Below, piece by piece: positions 17,864 to 28,511 of a DNA stretch of 47,556 nucleotides. Both the position numbers and the translations under genes were made by a program. The stretch is from Desulfuromonadaceae bacterium (GTDB taxonomy: Bacteria > Desulfobacterota > Desulfuromonadia > Geobacterales > Pseudopelobacteraceae). The DNA is taken from positions 1 to 47,556 of the forward strand of contig JAQTRC010000015.1 of assembly GCA_028712665.1 (NCBI GenBank). The letters are read 5' to 3'. The notes below the pieces were generated by a model. It made no database searches and was not told the DNA's origin. It saw nothing but the letters and a program-made list of their open reading frames with translations. Position 1 is the first letter of the stretch, and the number at the start of each line of letters is the position of its first letter.

Positions 17864-17991
17864 GTCTCTCCCTCCATAATTTTACATTGATTATACAGAT
17901 TCCGGTTACGAACATTGCAAGAAACTATTGCAATTCATATGAGAATTAAACCAATCGACATTACATGTAAATTATTTCTGTAAATTATTTC

Positions 17992-18027
17992 TTGACAACA
18001 TGGTTTTTTATCTATAGAAATAGTAGA
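17992..18027 (+). promoter_or_regulatory. Rrf2 regulator promoter with TCTAT-N7-GTAGA operator
   Basis: TTGACA (17992-17997) and TAGAAA (18015-18020) have 17-base spacing. A 17-bp palindrome TCTAT-N7-GTAGA covers 18011-18027, overlapping the -10 and the predicted transcription start. The same layout recurs before cysK and sbp. The expected start of transcription (about 18027) falls at the ATG at 18029, and no ribosome site is visible, suggesting a leaderless message under self-repression. This is inference. Confidence 0.6.
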
Positions 18028-18028
18028 C

Positions 18029-18490
18029 ATGTTATCAAAGAAAACAAAATATGCCCTTAAAGCGCTGATCCATCTGGCAACTCAACCAGTTGACGAACCG
18101 ATTCTAATATCGGAACTTGCCAGAACTGAAGAGATACCTCGCAAATTTCTCGAGTCAATTTTGCTGACACTTAAAAATGCCGGTATACTTCAGAGTAAGA
18201 TTGGTAAGGGTGGTGGATATTACCTTGCCAGAGAACCCAGGAATATAAGCATCGGTACTGTTATCAAGGTGCTTGAAGGTGGCTATGCTCCCGTCCACTG
18301 CCTGAATGACGCCACTTCGCCTAGGTGCGACGAATGCGGAGACCCTTCCAGTTGTGGGATCAGGCTGGTAATGTCAGACGTTATGCAGGCCATCACTTCC
18401 GTTCTTGAGTCAACCACGCTGGCTGACATGATCGAGCGATCGGAAAATGCACAGAAAGCCCAGGCAAAGATTGTAGACTTCAGTATCTGA
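18029..18490 (+). CDS. Rrf2-family transcriptional regulator, probable cysteine/sulfur regulator
   Basis: A 153-residue winged-helix regulator of the Rrf2 family (IscR, CymR, NsrR relatives). The N-terminus MLSKKTKYALKALIHLA and the recognition region ISELARTEEIPRKFLESILLTLKNAGILQSKIGKGGGYYLA are typical. After the DNA-binding domain lie four Cys (91, 100, 103 and 109, in CLNDATSPRCDECGDPSSCG), similar in placement to the Fe-S ligands of IscR. A metal or Fe-S cluster, or direct sensing of sulfur status through CysK as in CymR, are both possible. The gene lies just upstream of cysK and shares a palindromic promoter site with cysK and sbp, so I infer it represses sulfate assimilation when sulfur is plentiful. 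The name cymR or iscR should not be transferred without proof. Confidence 0.88.
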   Translation: MLSKKTKYALKALIHLATQPVDEPILISELARTEEIPRKFLESILLTLKNAGILQSKIGKGGGYYLAREPRNISIGTVIKVLEGGYAPVHCLNDATSPRCDECGDPSSCGIRLVMSDVMQAITSVLESTTLADMIERSENAQKAQAKIVDFSI

Positions 18491-18496
18491 CTTTTT

Positions 18497-18525
18497 TTGC
18501 ACCGTTAGTCTATAAATTCCATAGA
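18497..18525 (+). promoter_or_regulatory. cysK promoter with TCTAT-N7-ATAGA operator
   Basis: TTGCAC (18497-18502) and CATAGA (18520-18525) are spaced by 17 bases. The palindrome TCTAT-N7-ATAGA at 18509-18525 covers the spacer and the -10. A bound dimer would block RNA polymerase. It shares a long run of bases with the sbp promoter (TTTTTTTGCA ... TAGTCTATAAA ... CCATAGA). Confidence 0.65.
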
Positions 18526-18549
18526 CGTTAACAACGAAAGGAGAAAATC

Positions 18550-19503
18550 ATGAGCAGAATTTATGCAGACAACTCGCAGTCAATCGGAAACACTCCGCTG
18601 GTGAGATTGAATCACATTGTCGGAGATTCAAAAGCCATCATACTTGCGAAGGTGGAGGGGCGCAACCCGGCCTACTCTGTAAAATGCCGGATCGGCGCCA
18701 ATATGATCTGGGACGCAGAAAAACGTGGCGTACTCAAACCGGGCGTTGAGATCATAGAACCGACCAGCGGCAACACCGGCATAGCCCTGGCGTATGTGGC
18801 CGCCGCCCGCGGATACAAGCTTACCCTGACTATGCCTGAGACTATGAGCATCGAGCGCCGCAGAGTGCTGGCCGCTCTGGGCGCCAATCTGATCCTGACA
18901 CCCGGCGCCGAGGGGATGAAGGGCGCTATCTCCAGGGCCGAGGAAATTGCTGCCGCGGAACCGGCAAAATATTTTCTGCCTCAGCAGTTCAAAAACCCGG
19001 CCAACCCTGAAATCCATGAGAAAACAACCGGACCCGAGATATGGAATGATACCGACGGCGCTGTCGATGTCCTGGTCTCCGGTGTAGGAACCGGAGGCAC
19101 CATCACCGGAATTTCGCGCTACATCAAATATACCGGGGGGAAGAAGATCATCTCGGTCGCGGTCGAGCCGAAGGAAAGCCCGGTCATCACACAGCACCTG
19201 GCGGGTCTTCCGATCCAGCCCGCACCACATAAGATACAGGGAATCGGAGCCGGATTCATTCCCGACACTCTCGATCTTTCAGTAGTCGACCGTGTCGAAC
19301 TGGTGGAGAGCGCCGAAGCGATCGAATTCGCCAAACGCCTGGCAAAAGAAGAAGGGCTATTGGTCGGAATTTCCTGCGGCGCAGCAGTGGCGGCAGCGGT
19401 TCGACTTGGCCAGTTGGATGAATTTGCCGGCAAGACCATAGTTGTCATTCTGCCTGACGGGGCCGAGCGCTATCTATCTACGGCACTGTTTGAGGGGATC
19501 TGA
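18550..19503 (+). CDS. cysK: Cysteine synthase A (O-acetylserine sulfhydrylase)
   Basis: A 317-residue pyridoxal-phosphate enzyme of fold type II that joins sulfide to O-acetylserine to give cysteine. Landmarks: [11 protein letters not shown] near the N-terminus, the lysine that holds PLP in [15 protein letters not shown] (about residue 42), the substrate loop [12 protein letters not shown], the phosphate-binding [11 protein letters not shown] and the C-terminal [11 protein letters not shown]. The usual NPSxSVKxR motif reads NPAYSVKCR here. The start follows AAAGGAG at good distance. Its stop codon overlaps the start of the next gene by one base (TGATG), so both come from the cysK promoter. 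Confidence 0.97.
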
Positions 19504-20786
19504 TGTCGGCACAACCTTTTGATTACCGGCTCGACGGCATCTACCGTCAGCGCCAGGAGGGTTCTTTCATGCAGCGGGTCAAATTGCCGGCCGGGGTCAT
19601 CTCGGCTGAGCAGGCCCGGGCAGTGGCCGATGTTTCCCTTCGATTCGGTCATGGCACAATCCATCTGACCACGCGCGGCAGCATCGAGATACACTGGCTG
19701 AAAGAGTCCGATCTACCTGAAGTTAAAAGGGCTCTTTCAAAAGTCGGTTTGACCACGCGCGGCGCCTGCGGGGGCGCCGTACGCGGCATCACCTGCTCCA
19801 GCCAGGGGGCCGCGGGTTTTCCGGCACTTGAAACAATGGCGCGCCGCCTTCAGCGCCACTTCGCCGGCAACCCCCGCTTTGAGCGATTGCCGAAGAAATT
19901 CAAGATCGGCGTTGAGGCCGATAATGCGGGCCGCCGCCACCTGATTCAGGACGTCGGACTTGTTTTTGCCGGCAATGATACCGAAGGCTCCCGCTTTGAC
20001 ATGTATCTGGGGGGGGGATTGGGACGCGAGCCGCAGGCTGGCTTCCTATTTGAAACCGCAGTAAACGAGAAACGGATCATCCCGCTTATCGAAGCGGTGG
20101 CCAGGGTCTATGCCGTCCATACCCCGCCCGGAAAACGGGTCAAGCACCTTGTACGGGAGATCGGCGAAGCTGAGTTCCGTAGGCGAGTGTCGATGGAACC
20201 ATCATTTGCCGAAGAACTTCCAGCGATAGCAGGATTGCCCGAAACTCTTGCGCCGGCCGCCGGGAACCGGCGCATCGAAGTCTGTTTTTTTGGTGGTTTC
20301 CTCTCCGCTCTGCAATTGAAAGAGCTGGCCGACTTTGCCGACGAACTGGCCGACGGCGTTTTGATGGCAACCGCCAACCAGGATATCGCTTTGCATATCT
20401 CCAGTGCTTCCGATTTTGCCGGCGCTTCAAGCGCACTCAGGCAAGCCGGCTTTGAACTTGGCGGGACGACCTTCCGGATCTGCCCCGGCAGTCACCTCTG
20501 TCGGGTTGGACTGTCGCCGACCAGCGACATCGCCGGAACAATAATTGATGCAATGGGGCCGGCGGCAAAAGCACTGACCTGGGCGTTCTCCGGCTGCCAC
20601 AATTCCTGCGCACAACCGCAGTTGGCCGATGCAGGGATTGTCAGCTCAACTCTGGTCAAGGACGAACAGGGGGAACGTTCTCCCCGATTTGATCTCTACC
20701 GCCTCGGCGATCAGGGTCTGGGAGGTGTCGTGGCACCTTCCCTGACGTTGGATGAGCTCTGTAGCAAGGTGCGGGAGATCGGATGA
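19503..20786 (+). CDS. Siroheme/4Fe-4S sulfite (or nitrite) reductase family protein
   Basis: A 427-residue protein of the nitrite/sulfite reductase family. The first ferredoxin-like half-domain (YRQRQEGSFMQRVKLPAGVISAEQARAVADVS) leads to a siroheme-facing block (TTRGSIEIHW, TTRGACGGAVRGITCSS). The Fe-S/siroheme ligands are complete, in two pairs: Cys327/Cys333 (CPGSHLC) and Cys365/Cys369 (CHNSC). It most likely reduces sulfite to sulfide as the assimilatory step between CysH and CysK; nitrite reduction cannot be ruled out from sequence alone. It is shorter than the E. coli CysI (about 570 residues). It overlaps cysK by one base, which supports a joint role. No CysJ-type flavoprotein is adjacent, so electrons probably come from ferredoxin. 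Confidence 0.85.
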   Translation: MSAQPFDYRLDGIYRQRQEGSFMQRVKLPAGVISAEQARAVADVSLRFGHGTIHLTTRGSIEIHWLKESDLPEVKRALSKVGLTTRGACGGAVRGITCSSQGAAGFPALETMARRLQRHFAGNPRFERLPKKFKIGVEADNAGRRHLIQDVGLVFAGNDTEGSRFDMYLGGGLGREPQAGFLFETAVNEKRIIPLIEAVARVYAVHTPPGKRVKHLVREIGEAEFRRRVSMEPSFAEELPAIAGLPETLAPAAGNRRIEVCFFGGFLSALQLKELADFADELADGVLMATANQDIALHISSASDFAGASSALRQAGFELGGTTFRICPGSHLCRVGLSPTSDIAGTIIDAMGPAAKALTWAFSGCHNSCAQPQLADAGIVSSTLVKDEQGERSPRFDLYRLGDQGLGGVVAPSLTLDELCSKVREIG

Positions 20787-20815
20787 TCGTCCGCACCGCA
20801 GATAGCCTGTTTTTT

Positions 20816-20845
20816 TTGCATCATTTAGTCTATAAAAACCATAGA
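20816..20845 (+). promoter_or_regulatory. sbp promoter with TCTAT-N7-ATAGA operator
   Basis: TTGCAT (20816-20821) is followed after 18 bases by CATAGA (20840-20845). The palindrome TCTAT-N7-ATAGA lies at 20829-20845. It begins the transcription unit sbp-cysT-cysW-cysA-cysH-cysD-cysN and repeats the cysK layout nearly base for base in the outer arms. Confidence 0.65.
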
Positions 20846-20873: not shown

Positions 20874-21866
20874 ATGAAAACCGGATTTATTGCAAACTTA
20901 CTGACAGCGGCTTTTCTGACAACTTCTCTGGCGCAGGGAGCCGATATAACTTTATTGAACGTATCCTACGATCCGACCCGCGAACTTTATGCCGACTTTA
21001 ACAACGTCTTTGCCGCGTACTGGAAGGGAAAAACCGGCGACAAGGTCACCATCAGGCAGTCCCACGGCGGTTCCGGAAAGCAGGCCCGGGCGGTTATTGA
21101 CGGTCTGGAAGCCGATGTGATCACCCTGGCGCTGGCGTACGATATTGACGCAATCGCCACCAAGGGGCAGATCAAGCCGGGCTGGCAGAAAGAGCTGCCG
21201 CACAACAGCGCACCCTACACCTCCACCATCGTCTTCCTGGTACGCAAGGGGAATCCCAAGAAGATCAAAAACTGGGACGACCTTGTAAAACCGGGAGTAT
21301 CAGTCATCACCCCGAACCCCAAGACCTCCGGCGGCGCACGATGGAACTATCTGGCCGCATGGGCCTTCGCCCTGCACCAGCCGGGGGGGAACGACGCCAA
21401 GGCCAAGGAGTTCGTAATCAAGCTGCTCAAAAACGTACCTGTGCTTGACTCCGGCGCCCGCGGTTCAACCAATACCTTCGTACAGCGTGGCCTGGGTGAT
21501 GTACTGCTGGCCTGGGAGAACGAGGCATTCCTGGCGCTCAACGAACTGGGACCGGACAAGTTCGATGTCGTGACCCCTTCGGAAAGCATCCTGGCAGAAC
21601 CGCCGGTCACCGTGGTGGACAGGGTGGCCGACAAACGCGGCACCAGGAAAGTGGCCGAAGAATACCTGAAGTATCTCTATACCGACGAAGGGCAGAAGAT
21701 CGCCGCAAAGCATTATTATCGTCCGATAAACACAAAGATCCCGACCAAACTGGCCAAAGTCAAGCTCTATACGATCGACAAAGCCTTCGGCGGCTGGCAG
21801 AAGGCTCAGAAAACTCACTTTGCCGATGGCGGTACATTCGACCAGATTTACGACGTAAAGAAATAA
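20874..21866 (+). CDS. sbp: Periplasmic sulfate/thiosulfate-binding protein of ABC transporter
   Basis: A 330-residue substrate-binding protein with signal peptide ([23 protein letters not shown]). Family landmarks: [120 protein letters not shown]. The Ser/Gly-rich HGGSGKQ and SGGARW loops bind the oxyanion through hydrogen bonds. It delivers sulfate to CysT/CysW. The start follows GAGGGAG. It heads the transport-and-activation operon under the 20829-20845 operator. The product could equally be named CysP. Confidence 0.95.
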
Positions 21867-21892: not shown

Positions 21893-22723
21893 ATGAAATT
21901 ATTCAAGCGACATAACAACGTACTCCCCGGCTTCGGGCTGAGCATCGGCTTCACGATATTCTACCTGAGCGTCATCGTGCTGATTCCGCTCTCGTCTCTG
22001 GTATTCAGAACAGCCGGACTGACCTGGGGCGAATTTATCAGCACCGTCACGGCTCCCCGGGTAATGGCCTCCTACAAGGTGACCTTTGGCGCGGCCATTA
22101 TTGCAGCACTTATCAATTCGATCTTCGGCGTACTTGTGGCCTGGGTCCTGGTTCGCTACCGCTTCCCAGGCCGGCGGATTGTGGATGCACTGGTGGATCT
22201 CCCCTTTGCCCTGCCGACCGCAGTGGCCGGCATCACCCTGGCCACGATCTACTCCCCCAACGGCTGGGTGGGGCGCTACCTGGAGCCTCACGGCATCAAG
22301 GCAGCCTTCACGCCGTTCGGCATCGTACTGGCCATGACATTTATCGGCCTCCCCTTCGTTGTGCGCACCGTTCAACCGGTTATTGAGGAGATCGAGGTGG
22401 AACTGGAAGAAGCCGCCGTCTGCCTGGGAGCCAATCGCCGGCAGACCCTTCAACGTATAATTTTTCCGATGCTGTTGCCTTCAATCCTGACCGGTTTCGC
22501 CCTGTCATTCGCCAGGGGCGTGGGCGAATACGGTTCGATCATCTTTATCGCAGGCAACATGCCGATGGTCTCGGAGATCACGCCGCTCCTGATCATCACC
22601 AAGCTCGAACAGTTCGACTATCAAGGCGCAACCGCCATAGCCTGCGTGATGCTGCTGACATCATTTTTAATGCTGCTGGTCATCAATCTTCTGCAGAAGT
22701 GGAGCAGAAGGTATGCAGAATAG
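21893..22723 (+). CDS. cysT: Sulfate ABC transporter permease CysT
   Basis: A 276-residue inner-membrane permease with about six transmembrane segments, beginning NNVLPGFGLSIGFTIFYLSVIVLIPLSSLVF. The ABC-coupling EAA loop is visible as ELEEAAVCLGANRRQTLQRIIFPMLLPSILTGF, followed by ARGVGEYGSIIFIAGNMP, a sulfate-permease signature. It forms the channel together with CysW and is powered by CysA. It starts 27 bp after sbp. Confidence 0.95.
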   Translation: MKLFKRHNNVLPGFGLSIGFTIFYLSVIVLIPLSSLVFRTAGLTWGEFISTVTAPRVMASYKVTFGAAIIAALINSIFGVLVAWVLVRYRFPGRRIVDALVDLPFALPTAVAGITLATIYSPNGWVGRYLEPHGIKAAFTPFGIVLAMTFIGLPFVVRTVQPVIEEIEVELEEAAVCLGANRRQTLQRIIFPMLLPSILTGFALSFARGVGEYGSIIFIAGNMPMVSEITPLLIITKLEQFDYQGATAIACVMLLTSFLMLLVINLLQKWSRRYAE

Positions 22724-22883: not shown

Positions 22884-23756
22884 ATGTCGGCACCGGTAGC
22901 AATTATCCCTAGATCACAAAACCCGAAAGGCCGGCTACAGACCGAACCGGCTGCAGTGCGTTGGCTGCTGATCGCCATTGCCCTGGCATTTCTGACCCTG
23001 TTCCTCGCGCTTCCCCTTGCTGCCGTATTCAGCCAAGCCTTCGAGAAAGGTCTTTCGGTGTATCTGACCGCCCTACAAGAACCTGATACCCTGTCATCCA
23101 TCAAGCTGACGCTCATAACCGCCGCTCTGACCGTACCGCTCAACCTCTTCTTCGGGGTGACCGCAGCCTGGGCAATCGCCAAGTTCAGTTTTCCGGGCAA
23201 GAACCTGCTGATCACCCTGATCGACCTCCCCTTCTCGGTCTCTCCGGTCATCTCCGGACTTATTTATGTCCTGATCTTCGGTCTGCAGGGGTGGATCGGA
23301 CCCTGGCTGCAGGCGCACGATATCAAGATCGTTTTTGCCGTACCGGGCATTATCCTGGCCACAATCTTCGTCACCTTCCCCTTCGTGGCCCGCGAGCTGA
23401 TTCCGCTGATGGAAGCACAGGGGAAGGATGAGGAGGAGGCGGCCTTGGTGCTGGGCGCAAGCGGCCTGCAGACCTTCTTCCGGGTGACCCTGCCAAACAT
23501 CAAATGGGGCATCATATACGGCGTAATCCTCTGTAACGCCCGCACCATGGGAGAGTTCGGCGCCGTGTCGGTAGTCTCCGGCCATATCAGGGGGATGACC
23601 AATACCGTGCCGCTTCACGTGGAGATTCTATACAACGAATACAACTACACCGCCGCCTTTGCCGTTGCGTCGCTGCTGGCCTTTCTGGCGCTGATTACAC
23701 TCGCGGTCAAGAGCGTGGCCGAGTGGAAGGTTCGGCTGCAATTGGGAAATGAATAA
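22884..23756 (+). CDS. cysW: Sulfate ABC transporter permease CysW
   Basis: A 290-residue inner-membrane permease, partner of CysT, with about six transmembrane segments. The first is [27 protein letters not shown], and the sulfate-permease motif [18 protein letters not shown]-like (here [22 protein letters not shown]) is present. The EAA loop reads [32 protein letters not shown]. The start follows AGAGGAAC. It lies 160 bp downstream of cysT, with a palindromic element in the gap. Confidence 0.95.
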
Positions 23757-23849: not shown

Positions 23850-24887
23850 ATGAGTATCGAAATCGAAAATATCAGCAAACAGTTCGGAAGCTTCAAAGCC
23901 TTGAAGGACGTCAACCTCACCATACCTTCCGGCGAACTTGTGGCACTGCTCGGCCCTTCCGGATCAGGCAAGACCACCCTGCTGCGGATCATTGCCGGAC
24001 TGGAGACTCCTGACTCTGGCCGGATTCTGTTCAACGGACAGGACAGTACCGACTCACACGTCAGGGAGCGGCAGGTAGGCTTTGTCTTCCAGCATTACGC
24101 CCTGTTCCGTCACCTGACCGTCTTCGAAAATATCGCCTTCGGTCTGCGGGTCAGGCCTCGCGCCACGCGCCCATCCAATGTCGAGATCGGCGACAAAGTC
24201 ATGAAACTGCTCCAGTTGGTACAGCTTGAGGGGATGTCCAAACGCTATCCTGCTCAACTCTCCGGCGGCCAGCGCCAGCGCATCGCCCTGGCCCGCGCGC
24301 TGGCTGTGGAACCACAGGTACTGCTGCTGGACGAACCTTTTGGCGCCCTGGATGCACAGGTACGGGCCGAACTGCGCCGCTGGCTGCGCAAGCTGCATGA
24401 TGAGATTCACGTCACCAGTGTCTTCGTGACCCACGACCAGGAAGAGGCGCTGGAGGTGGCCGACCGTATTGTAGTCATGAACAGGGGGAAGATCGAACAG
24501 TACGGTACTCCGGACCAGGTATATGAGAACCCGGTCAATCCTTTCGTGCTGAACTTTCTGGGGAACGTCAACCTGTTTCATGGCCGGCTGCATCAAACCG
24601 GTGAAGGTCAGCTTGATGCAAGCGAAAAAACCGTATCATACGTCCGTTCTCACGATATCGAGATCGAGCGGAGCCGGCAGGATCCAACATCGCTTAAGGC
24701 CGAGGTCAAGCATATCCAGAAATTGGGACCGGCGGTTCGGGTCACCCTGGCCATTGAAGGGAATAATGAGTTTATCGAAGCGGAACTGACCAGGGACCTG
24801 TTCCAGAATCTTGGGCTTCAGCAGGGCGAGTCAGTCTTTGTGCGTCCGCGCCAGGTGAGGGTGTTTGTCGAAGACTACCAGATATAG
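23850..24887 (+). CDS. cysA: Sulfate ABC transporter ATP-binding protein
   Basis: A 345-residue ATPase. Walker A is [11 protein letters not shown] (about 35-45), the Q-loop [11 protein letters not shown], the signature [15 protein letters not shown], Walker [13 protein letters not shown] and the switch His in [17 protein letters not shown]. The C-terminal roughly 110 residues (from [13 protein letters not shown]) form the TOBE-like regulatory domain of CysA/MalK proteins. It binds and hydrolyses ATP on the cytoplasmic face of CysT-CysW to drive sulfate uptake. Confidence 0.97.
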
Positions 24888-25023: not shown

Positions 25024-25725
25024 ATGGATACTTTAATTTCTATTCTGCCAACCAGCACCGCCCCCGCCGACATCCTGCGCCTCGGCATCAAAGCGGCCAA
25101 CGGCCCGGTCTCTCTGGCCTGTTCCTTCTCGCTTGAGGATGTGGCCATCATCGACATCGCCCAGAAGGCCGGACTGAATCTGGGAGTTTTCGCTCTCGAC
25201 ACCGGCCGGCTGAACGAGGAGACCTACGAGGTAGCCGAAATTTTGCTGGAACGCTACCGCCTGAAGATCGACTGGTACTTTCCGCGCCATGAGGAGGTCC
25301 AGAGTCTTGAGAGCGCCGAGGGGCTTTTTTCTTTCCGCGAATCGCTGGACAAGCGCCACGAATGCTGCGCCATCCGGAAGGTGGAACCGCTGTCATGCGC
25401 ATTGAAAGGGCTCTCAGGTTGGGTTACCGGCATCCGCCGGGAGCAGAGCGTCACCCGCAGCGAATTGAAGGCTATTGAACGGGACGATCTGAACGGCGGT
25501 ATCCTCAAAATAAACCCTCTGATCGACTGGAGCGAGGAACAACTTCTTGCCTACACCGAAGAGCAGCGTCTCCCTAAGAACCGCCTTTACAGCCAGGGAT
25601 ACCGCTCTATCGGCTGCGCCCCCTGCACCAGGAGCGTGCAACCGGGCGAGGATGCCAGGGCGGGGCGATGGTGGTGGGAGAACCCGGAGCATAAGGAATG
25701 CGGGTTACACCGAAAGGTGATGTAA
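25024..25725 (+). CDS. cysH: Adenylyl-sulfate (APS) reductase, 4Fe-4S type
   Basis: A 233-residue reductase that turns APS into sulfite plus AMP. Residues LACSFSLEDVAIIDIAQ form the ATP-pyrophosphatase-like substrate pocket. The Fe-S type is shown by Cys114-Cys115 (HECCAIRKVEPL) and Cys198/Cys201 (GCAPCTR), the four-Cys set that separates APS reductases from PAPS reductases. The catalytic Cys is Cys226 in ECGLH. No APS kinase (CysC) is present in this cluster, in agreement with direct APS use. The start follows GAGGGAATAAC. The family name cysH is used here in the sense of APS reductase. Confidence 0.95.
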   Translation: MDTLISILPTSTAPADILRLGIKAANGPVSLACSFSLEDVAIIDIAQKAGLNLGVFALDTGRLNEETYEVAEILLERYRLKIDWYFPRHEEVQSLESAEGLFSFRESLDKRHECCAIRKVEPLSCALKGLSGWVTGIRREQSVTRSELKAIERDDLNGGILKINPLIDWSEEQLLAYTEEQRLPKNRLYSQGYRSIGCAPCTRSVQPGEDARAGRWWWENPEHKECGLHRKVM

Positions 25726-25840: not shown

Positions 25841-26746
25841 ATGAGCCTAAATTTAACTCACCTGCAACAGCTTGAAGCCGAGAGCATCCACATCCTCCGC
25901 GAAGTGGCTGCCGAATTCGGCAACCCGGTGATGCTCTATTCGATCGGCAAAGATTCTGCGGTCATGCTGCATCTGGCCCGAAAGGCATTTTACCCGGCTC
26001 CCCCCCCCTTTCCCCTCTTGCATGTGGACACCACCTGGAAATTTCGCGAGATGATAGAGTTTCGGGACAAGATGGCCGCCGAATGCGGACTTGACCTGAT
26101 CGTGCATGTGAATGAGGAGGGGGTGAGTCAGGGAATTTCGCCCTTTACCCATGGATCGTCGCTCTACACCGATATCATGAAAACCGAAGGGCTGAAACAG
26201 GCCTTAAGCCGCTACAAATTCGACGCAGCCTTCGGAGGCGCCCGGCGGGACGAGGAAAAATCGAGGGCCAAGGAGCGGATATTCTCCTTCCGGAGCAGCA
26301 ACCACCGGTGGGATCCGAAAATCCAGCGCCCTGAGCTCTGGAATCTGTACAATTCCAGGATCAAGCCTGGGGAAAGCATCCGTGTATTTCCGATCTCCAA
26401 CTGGACCGAGCTTGATGTCTGGCAGTACATCCACCTGGAGCAGATACCGATCGTCCCGCTCTACTACGCCGCGGTTCGGCCGGTGGTTCTAAGGGACGGC
26501 ATGCTGATAATGGTTGACGATGACCGGCTGGAGCTCAAGTCGGGGGAAACGGTGCAGTACAGATCTGTCCGCTTCCGCACCTTAGGGTGTTACCCCTTGA
26601 CCGCTGCCGTCGAATCGGAAGCGGACACCTTGCCCCGGATCATCCAGGAAATGCTGCTGACCCGAACCTCGGAGCGCCAGGGACGACTGATCGACCATGA
26701 CCAGGCCGGGTCGATGGAGAAGAAGAAACAGGAAGGATACTTTTAA
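25841..26746 (+). CDS. cysD: Sulfate adenylyltransferase subunit 2
   Basis: A 301-residue small subunit of the CysDN ATP sulfurylase, which makes APS from sulfate and ATP. The ATP-pyrophosphatase loop is visible as [21 protein letters not shown]. Further landmarks are [50 protein letters not shown] and [20 protein letters not shown]. The C-terminal [21 protein letters not shown] is conserved in the family. The start follows AGGAGCA. It is 85 bp upstream of cysN, its GTPase partner. Confidence 0.97.
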
Positions 26747-26831: not shown

Positions 26832-28511
26832 GTGGCACACCAATCCGAACTTATAGAAAAAGATATCTTCGCCTATCTTAAGAGCCATGAAGAGAAATCA
26901 CTGCTCCGCTTCATTACCTGCGGCAGTGTCGATGACGGAAAGAGCACCCTGATCGGACGGCTGCTATGGGATTCGAAGATGGTGTTTGAAGACCAGCTGG
27001 CATCGCTGGAAGCGGACAGCAAAAAGGTCGGCACCCAGGGGGGAGCCATCGATTACGCGCTGCTGCTGGACGGTCTGCAGGCGGAACGTGAGCAGGGGAT
27101 CACCATCGATGTGGCGTACCGCTACTTTTCCACAGACCGGCGCAAGTTTATCGTCGCAGACACCCCTGGTCACGAGCAGTATACACGCAACATGGTTACC
27201 GGAGCCTCAACCGCCCAGGTTGCGGTGATCCTCGTGGATGCGCGCAAAGGGGTGCTGACCCAGACCAGACGTCACAGTTTTCTGGTCTCCCTGGTCGGCA
27301 TACGGCGTATAGTGCTGGCGGTCAATAAGATGGATCTGATCGATTTCGATGAGCAGCAGTTCGAGGCGATCCGGAGCGATTACGAGCGGTTCGCGGCATC
27401 GCTCGGCTTTGGCAATATCACAGCCATTCCACTCTCCGCCCTCGGCGGCGATAATATGATCGAACCGAGTCCCAATACCCCCTGGTACAAAGGACCCACC
27501 CTCATACAGTATCTGGAGAACGTTCAGATTGAGGGAGAGGACAGGGAAAAAGCGTTCCGGATGCCGGTTCAGTGGGTTAACCGCCCGCATCTCGACTTTC
27601 GCGGTTTCTGCGGCACGGTCGCTTCTGGCGTGATCCGTCCTGGTGACGAGCTGCTGGTCGCATCAAGCGGACGCAGCAGCCGGGTGAAGCGGATCGTCAC
27701 TATGAATGGAGATCTGAAGGAAGCGGTAGCCGGCCAGTCGGTTACCCTCACCCTTGCGGATGAGATAGATATCAGCCGGGGCGACATGCTCTCTGCAATC
27801 GATGCTCCTCCGATCCATGCCAGGCACCCGGAAGCCTATCTCGTCTGGATGCACGAAGAACCGCTGCAGCCTGGACAGATCTACCTGATCAAATCAGCTA
27901 CTTCAACGACTCCCGGCCGGGTCACCGACGTACAGTATGCAGTGGACGTCAATACCCTGGAGCAGAAGCAGGTGCCGACACTTGGACTGAACGAAATCGG
28001 TGTCGTCCGCCTGGAACTGGACCGCCCGATCTCATTCGACCCCTACCGGCAAAACCGTCAGACCGGAAGCTTTATCCTGATCGATCGTATCAGCAATGCA
28101 ACCGTGGCTGCCGGAATGGTGATAGCTGTAGCACCTATCGAACCCCAAAAAACCGGGCTTTCCGGGTTAACTCCGCTCGTACCTGATGCTGGCAACGGCC
28201 TGCTGCGGCGTATCAGCCTGAACGAAGCATCAATCAGCGGCATCGGAGTGAGCGTTGTTGATCTGACCGGAGAGTCCGGTTCAATAGAATTCAGTGTATC
28301 CGACAGCTTCTTAGGCTATCTCGGCAAGGGGAACCGGGTTCTCTTCAGTCTGCGGGATATCGGGCAACTGCAGGCCGTGGCTCTCATGGCGTATGAACAC
28401 GCACTTTCATTTGAATTCGATCGAACTGCGGAAGGAGTAAGCATACTGATTTTCAAGCGTGGCATACGCTCCGGAAACCGGGTGTCCGATGACGGCGGGA
28501 CCGGGATATGA
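26832..28511 (+). CDS. cysN: Sulfate adenylyltransferase subunit 1 (GTPase) with extra C-terminal region
   Basis: A 559-residue GTPase subunit of ATP sulfurylase. GTP motifs: G1 GSVDDGKST (31-39), G3 DTPGH (110-114) and G4 NKMD (165-168). EF-Tu-like beta-barrel domains follow up to about residue 435. The start is GTG, with GGAGGAA 5 bases upstream. E. coli CysN ends near 475. Here about 120 further residues (from about 436, [22 protein letters not shown] and on) have no P-loop, so this is not the fused APS kinase of CysNC. I recognise no family for this part; its strand-rich pattern suggests a small beta domain. GTP hydrolysis by CysN drives APS formation by CysD. Confidence 0.94.

Follow-up and report, generated by a model that had tools for sequence, protein, structure and literature searches.

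An Rrf2-Family Regulator With a CysE-Like C-Terminal Tail and Its Predicted Sulfur-Assimilation Regulon in Geobacterales

The window analysed here is a stretch of 47,556 nucleotides (contig JAQTRC010000015.1 of assembly GCA_028712665.1) from a Desulfuromonadaceae bacterium of the Geobacterales, in which a gene for an Rrf2-family regulator (rrf2) heads a sulfate assimilation cluster and three 17-base palindromes stand before rrf2, cysK and sbp. Judged from sequence, these genes almost certainly form an autorepressing sulfur-assimilation regulon with promoter-overlapping operators, and the Rrf2 protein very probably acts by repression. Additionally, the regulator ends in the tetrapeptide DFSI, and it is likely that the neighbouring cysteine synthase, CysK, docks this tail and thereby reports the sulfur status to the repressor. 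The first-pass annotation of this DNA had proposed a repressor that controls itself, cysteine synthesis and sulfate uptake; comparison of genomes supports that model, the binding of protein to DNA being predicted.

Operator Sites in the Window and Around the Regulator

The pattern TCTAT-N7-RTAGA gives five strand matches at three places in the window, compared with a mean of 0.07 and a maximum of 2 in 100 dinucleotide shuffles, and the three sites named by the first-pass annotation are exact (Table 1). A matrix made without the window, from 51 of 61 rrf2 promoters, ranks them first, second and third at 19.5, 18.3 and 17.6 bits, the next score in the window being 9.3 bits and the best in the reversed window 11.7 bits. 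The bare 10-letter pattern is not enriched in the whole 3.55 Mb genome, where it gives 8 strand matches and 15 in the reversed control, and was dropped as a genome-wide test for lack of specificity; it is the fuller matrix with its context that singles out the three window sites.

The recurrence of the sites was followed at 61 loci of Geobacterales (the window and L036-L095), of which the 60 bases ahead of each of the 62 rrf2 copies were taken. A free-register motif search split the palindrome into two frames and was set aside for a symmetric 17-base matrix, TCTATaaantttATAGA, of 15.5 bits, with which 52 of the 62 copies score above 5 bits. Over the 961 kb of the 61 loci this matrix finds 114 matches of at least 12 bits (12 in reversed sequence) and 90 of at least 14 bits (2 in reversed sequence). 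Ninety-four of the 114 lie at most 300 bases before rrf2 (48, the training class), cysK (32), sbp (11), cysH (2) or nirA (1), and 20 lie elsewhere. The regulator clade is present in 53 of 58 genomes and is accompanied by cysK or sbp in 54 of the 61 loci; among the 20 named Geobacterales loci of a wider set (described below), 15 have a site of at least 12 bits beside rrf2.

Targets Away From the Regulator

Since the 61 loci were picked around rrf2, matches elsewhere in the genomes are a fairer test of the link to sulfur genes. A sequence-only model (R1) of 36 cysK, sbp and cysH sites was run over the 58 genomes and gave 90 matches at E<0.01, of which 28 were judged to fall away from any known gene of the rrf2 clade and its adjoining cluster; all 28 were read, and 24 precede sulfur genes. 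Sixteen stand before sbp, all in the model orientation, four at cysK, one of them in that orientation, two at cysH operons, one at metY (O-acetylhomoserine sulfhydrylase) and one before a CoA-disulfide reductase-rhodanese-TusA-DsrE2 fusion. At the other three cysK genes (L267, L268 and L272), which start 74, 236 and 235 bases downstream of the palindrome, the model points the other way, in L267 towards a Methyltransf_4 gene. The remaining four matches are not plainly sulfur-related and precede genes for glutaredoxin (L263), a radical SAM protein (L265, between sbp and a cysK homolog), an MFS_MOT1 transporter and ilvD. The first-pass annotation had named a motif no commoner near sulfur genes than elsewhere as what would speak against it; the counts, at the loci as well as away from them, point to the sulfur genes. 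Within the genome from which the window comes (197 contigs, 3.55 Mb), R1 has no matches at E<=0.1 other than the three sites, the model having been trained with the cysK and sbp sites of the window and without its rrf2 site.

Five of the 58 genomes (G012, G025, G035, G047, G052) have no rrf2 ortholog. The gene is probably missing from the assembly of G035, because its cysK, close to the end of a contig, has a site directly ahead of it, and R1 matches this genome strongly. No R1 match at E<=0.1 was found in G025 and G047, and G012 has one (0.09), by no known target.

The Regulator Protein

The gene beside the sites is, as the first-pass annotation had named it together with cysK and sbp, a member of the Rrf2 superfamily, passing the cut-offs of TIGR00738 (115.7 bits, cut-off 73.3) and PF02082 (127.9 bits, cut-off 30). 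It stays below the equivalog cut-offs of CymR (NF047409, 82.2 of 195 bits), IscR (TIGR02010, 63.7 of 207.55), RirA (NF008886, 64.8 of 193) and NsrR (NF008240, 55 of 182). In a tree of 101 rows, 96 members of the clade stand apart from five IscR-like paralogs with 100/100 support. The predicted fold has a pLDDT of 90.6, falling to 56 at the very end (residues 151-153), and its best structural match, the first of 38 PDB matches at E<=0.001, is CymR (2y75, TM 0.73 by query length), a fold also common to other Rrf2 structures.

Cysteines 91, 100, 103 and 109, spaced C-x8-C-x2-C-x5-C, are the same in every row of an alignment (74 of 74). Of 81 rows in all, seven were left out of this alignment, one (L108) without C103 and the other six with all four. 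Among the named loci (the best 80 of 582) all but L108 have the four cysteines (79 of 80). In an earlier alignment of 32 rows, four Geobacterales copies (L069, L075, L085, L091) are without C103. In this side branch the regulator stands beside cysK with no site, C103 is replaced by glycine and an extra cysteine precedes position 109.

The C-Terminal Tail and CysK

All 62 Rrf2 copies of Geobacterales, which are related and not independent, end in [FY]-x-I (DFSI in 27, DYSI in 15, others in 20) after a variable linker. Information at places -4 to -1 is 3.8, 3.4, 2.7 and 4.3 bits, compared with 1.1 to 2.0 bits at places -7 to -12 and -14. As background, 16 of 790 and 20 of 1076 open frames of at least 250 codons at the same loci end in [FYW]xI, many of them CysA; among the 70 open frames of the window with 150 codons or more, two do so, namely Rrf2 and CysA, and ten IscR-like neighbour proteins have no terminal isoleucine. 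Outside Geobacterales the tail is found in 20 of 60 rows from several phyla (best 80 of 582).

In the CysE-CysK complex CysE is anchored by its terminal isoleucine, which sits in the active site of CysK, O-acetylserine at micromolar levels breaks the complex up, and CdiA-CT mimics the CysE tail (PMC5562914, PMC12895370). DFSI is the native CysE tetrapeptide of Mycobacterium tuberculosis and was seen bound to CysK1 in 2Q3C (PMC9547175). Not every CysE tail has the aromatic residue: Escherichia coli has GDGI and Haemophilus influenzae NLNI (PMC6829319, PMC9547175). Because DFSI is a CysE tetrapeptide and the CysE tail anchors through its terminal isoleucine, docking of the Rrf2 tail in CysK is proposed here.

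In Geobacterales the housekeeping CysE has no terminal isoleucine in 35 of 35 readable proteins, and a second, long CysE ends in DYCI or DFCI in 8 of 8, one further fragment being outside the count. The long CysE proteins (L316-L323), 267-288 aa as read, come from eight genomes, in six of which they share a contig with sbp or cysD. The CysE counts leave out L347, L352, L354, L358 and L293 (unreadable), L355 (unlikely frame) and seven further matches, and a genome said to have no tailed CysE has none among the CysE proteins read. CysA ends in DYQI in the window (24873-24884) and in DYQI or DFSI in relatives (L362-L364), and the E. coli CysA that was read has no [FYW]xI ending. The CysA ending may be the end of a structural strand or a second ligand of CysK, and is offered as a lead.

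Promoter Architecture

The first-pass annotation had placed all three sites over promoters. There, -35-like and -10-like elements fit, the sites overlapping -10-like elements beside short leaders; a sigma-70 consensus scan of the window flagged none of the three promoters. The T-run that it had seen in common at cysK and sbp is real. The -35-like TTGCAC of cysK and TTGCAT of sbp are followed, after spacers of 17 and 18 bases, by CATAGA in the 3' half-site. In an alignment of the 37 nearest sites conservation is highest in the T-tract, in a g.ca element where this tract ends and in the 3' half TCTATAGA, which would fit the T-tract/g.ca element and the 3' half serving as -35 and -10, the -10 lying inside the operator. 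Because the formal scan flagged none of them, these are promoters that we infer. At rrf2, a layout with one base between the site and the ATG and TTGACA ahead is common to many relatives, and this short distance suggests a leaderless or near-leaderless rrf2 mRNA.

The same scan returned three promoter-like sites, all on the minus strand (2.6 in shuffles). The rrf2 -35 is overlapped on the minus strand (17971-17998) by TTGTCA-16-AATAAT, which looks like a promoter of the divergent tag gene. Control by a riboswitch or T-box was considered and rejected, as no Rfam family matched in the window at gathering thresholds.

The Same Clade in Other Phyla

Of the clade's named loci considered here (the best 80 of 582), 20 are from Geobacterales and 60 from outside, and the nearest named relatives of the window's Rrf2 among them belong to Geobacteraceae. 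With the Geobacterales matrix, 17 of the 60 outside loci have a site of at least 14 bits within 250 bases after rrf2 (0.09 expected), and 4 of the 60 have such a site within 150 bases before rrf2 (0.06 expected). The 17 include loci from Bacteroidota, Acidobacteriota, Binatota, Omnitrophota and Myxococcota, and 6 of their sites have a T-tract. Genes behind such sites include those for PAPS reductase (cysH), anion symporters with TrkA_C, sulfite transporters, a TauE exporter, porins, TonB-dependent receptors and DUF2061 proteins; of these kinds, just the few named first are plainly sulfur-related. One contig (L164, from a metagenome-assembled genome) is labelled Klebsiella pneumoniae, and its member of the clade groups with a Myxococcota row, so that the label is possibly mistaken.

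Proposed Mechanism and Its Alternatives

In the explanation that we consider probable as a whole, the Rrf2 repressor would bind TCTAT-N7-ATAGA palindromes and, by operator occlusion, block the promoters of rrf2, cysK-nirA and sbp-cysTWA-HDN while sulfur suffices. Its flexible DFSI tail would dock in the active site of the CysK encoded next door, as the CysE tail does, and CysK would thus be a co-repressor that keeps Rrf2 in its DNA-binding form. When reduced sulfur is short, O-acetylserine would build up as the inducer and displace the tail, and the regulon would be derepressed. A further input, from an iron-sulfur (Fe-S) cluster or thiols, may come from the four conserved cysteines. A wider idea, that CysK is an O-acetylserine-gated hub for the D-[FY]-x-I tails of Rrf2, CysA and the second CysE, is speculative and rather doubtful.

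Several observations weigh against this explanation, or against parts of it. Ten of the 62 rrf2 copies have no upstream site above 5 bits, and among them L075, L085 and L091 adjoin cysK, as does L069 (7.7 bits); similarly, 5 of the 20 named Geobacterales loci (L108, L112, L117, L121, L122), the Geomonas loci L112, L121 and L122 among them, have no site of at least 10 bits beside rrf2. In G052, where rrf2 has no ortholog, a weak site (E 0.069) nevertheless precedes sbp, an observation at odds with a strict coupling of regulator and site. The tail is absent from 40 of the 60 rows outside Geobacterales (best 80 of 582), Bacteroidota included, and since some of these rows keep sites, it is not needed for operator recognition. 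In these rows a nearby cysK accompanies 7 of 20 tailed and 2 of 40 untailed regulators (p 0.004), an association inseparable from descent. Bearing on a mutual exclusion of Rrf2 tail and CysE tail, a CysE ending in [FYW]xI was found in 3 of 16 species with tailed Rrf2 and 5 of 8 with untailed Rrf2 (p 0.065), and one with any terminal isoleucine in 4 of 16 and 6 of 8 (p 0.03), both comparisons amounting to 1-2 independent pairs in the tree. Moreover, the CysA proteins of two genomes of the phylum that lack this Rrf2 end in [FY]xI, one of them in DFSI, so that a protein with this ending is not necessarily regulated by CysK; the CysA tail was accordingly rejected as a partner trait specific to the repressor.

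In one alternative the regulon is the same and the four cysteines are the sensor, through a bound Fe-S cluster or their thiol redox state, as in IscR, RirA and NsrR, with the tail secondary. Conservation of these cysteines reaches further than that of the tail, and the structural relatives of the protein include Fe-S sensors; nevertheless the cysteine spacing (x8, x2, x5) and the scores of the protein are unlike those three models, the genes behind the sites are those of sulfur assimilation, the Geobacterales side branch does without C103, and the invariance of the tail in Geobacterales would be left unexplained, for which reasons this alternative appears unlikely. Proteases, too, recognize exposed hydrophobic C-termini, and the tail might then be a degradation signal or another recognition tag, a small molecule being sensed directly by the protein. 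The weakness of the structural model at the last three residues would agree with this, whereas the match of the tetrapeptides to CysE tails, including those of the long CysE of the same order, and the presence of cysK in most of these loci point to CysK as the partner and make a mere tag very improbable. Finally, the palindromes overlap -10-like elements, and orthologous promoters of common ancestry could have kept them by descent as -10 sequences and not as operators. This disfavoured account can be given hardly any credence, as both sides of the centre are palindromic, distances from the start codon vary, sites are kept at the off-locus sbp operons and after rrf2 in other phyla, and the best cysK of G012, G025 and G047, which are without this rrf2, has no site.

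Comparison With Known Systems

The proposed regulator resembles CymR of Bacillus subtilis and Staphylococcus aureus, the master repressor of cysteine metabolism, in its Rrf2 fold. In B. subtilis, CymR acts as part of a complex with CysK, and O-acetylserine is the signal (PMC2940859, PMC3828012). The window's Rrf2 differs in its score below the CymR cut-off, its four conserved cysteines, the usual closeness of its gene to cysK or sbp and its CysE-like terminal tail. The logic of CymR-CysK would operate, we infer, in a different Rrf2 clade. With CysE-CysK and CdiA-CT-CysK it shares a C-terminal peptide ending in isoleucine of the kind that inserts in the CysK active site; unlike these, the tail belongs to a predicted DNA-binding repressor, whose docking is deduced from sequence. 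IscR, RirA and NsrR are of the same family and have cysteines in a similar region, and they differ in cysteine spacing and neighbouring genes. IscR has three cysteines spaced C-x5-C-x5-C, a spacing that the window's Rrf2 does not have.

SEED/RAST carries similar Rrf2 regulator labels for cysteine synthase. In Rhodococcus, an Rrf2 protein regulating sulfate genes was predicted from context, and the operator, tail and cysteine signature described here do not appear in the accessible part of that work (PMC8557817). The cobalt-responsive GSU1639 of Geobacter is described as IscR-like and under Fur (PMC7726332). A term search of the available text of Rodionov 2004 (PMC545781) found neither Rrf2 nor cysK, and a literature search that reached few subscription papers and did not cover RegPrecise found no description of this Geobacterales regulon.

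Organization of the Cluster

The cluster of the window runs tag (minus strand), rrf2, cysK, nirA-like, sbp, cysT, cysW, cysA, cysH, cysD and cysN.

Table 1. Positions of the regulator, the putative operators and promoter elements, and the sulfate assimilation genes in the window.
Feature	Position	Strand	Remarks
-35-like TTGACA of rrf2	17992-17997	+	precedes the rrf2 site, likewise in many relatives
Operator 1 (rrf2), putative	18011-18027	+	TCTATAGAAATAGTAGA; 1 base from the rrf2 ATG; overlaps the rrf2 -10 region
rrf2, Rrf2-family repressor (predicted)	18029-18490	+	153 aa; cysteines 91, 100, 103, 109; C-terminal DFSI
DFSI tail codons of Rrf2	18476-18487	+	
T-tract upstream of operator 2	18492-18498	+	
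-35-like TTGCAC of cysK	18497-18502	+	17 bases before CATAGA 18520-18525
Operator 2 (cysK), putative	18509-18525	+	TCTATAAATTCCATAGA; -10-like CATAGA in its 3' half
cysK, cysteine synthase A	18550-19503	+	TSGNT (72) and PQQF (144) motifs present
nirA/sulfite-reductase-like gene	19503-20786	+	
T-tract upstream of operator 3	20810-20817	+	
Operator 3 (sbp-cysTWA-cysH-cysD-cysN), putative	20829-20845	+	TCTATAAAAACCATAGA
sbp, sulfate-binding protein	20874-21866	+	
cysT permease	21893-22723	+	
cysW permease	22884-23756	+	
cysA importer ATPase	23850-24887	+	ends DYQI
cysH, (P)APS reductase	25024-25725	+	
cysD	25841-26746	+	
cysN	26832-28511	+	

Other genes were seen behind operator sites in related loci. 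A family of proteins of 263-268 aa (L043, L046, L048, L054, L270, L271; 35-86% mutual identity) is encoded behind such a site between nirA and cysH or before cysH; it has no Pfam match, and no NCBIfam match in the three members tried. A gene for a TehB-like methyltransferase follows a site about 1 kb downstream of cysK (L053:7948-8547, L062:9541-10077), and a radical SAM gene (291 aa) follows a site in sbp/cysK clusters (L082:7304-8176, L265:2846-3718).

Concluding Remarks

With this predicted regulon the Geobacterales gain a testable system of sulfur assimilation control with its operator, and the same operator is found after the same Rrf2 clade in other phyla. The tail offers a direct molecular hypothesis of how a repressor may read the sulfur status through the pocket of CysK that CysE uses; if it is true, the cysteine synthase complex would be one instance of docking in a slot of wider use. 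Should the more doubtful hub also prove true, a single CysK pocket, by being occupied or empty, would turn off transcription together with the import of sulfate and the provision of O-acetylserine; the tail would then, in several phyla, have passed between CysE and the repressor.

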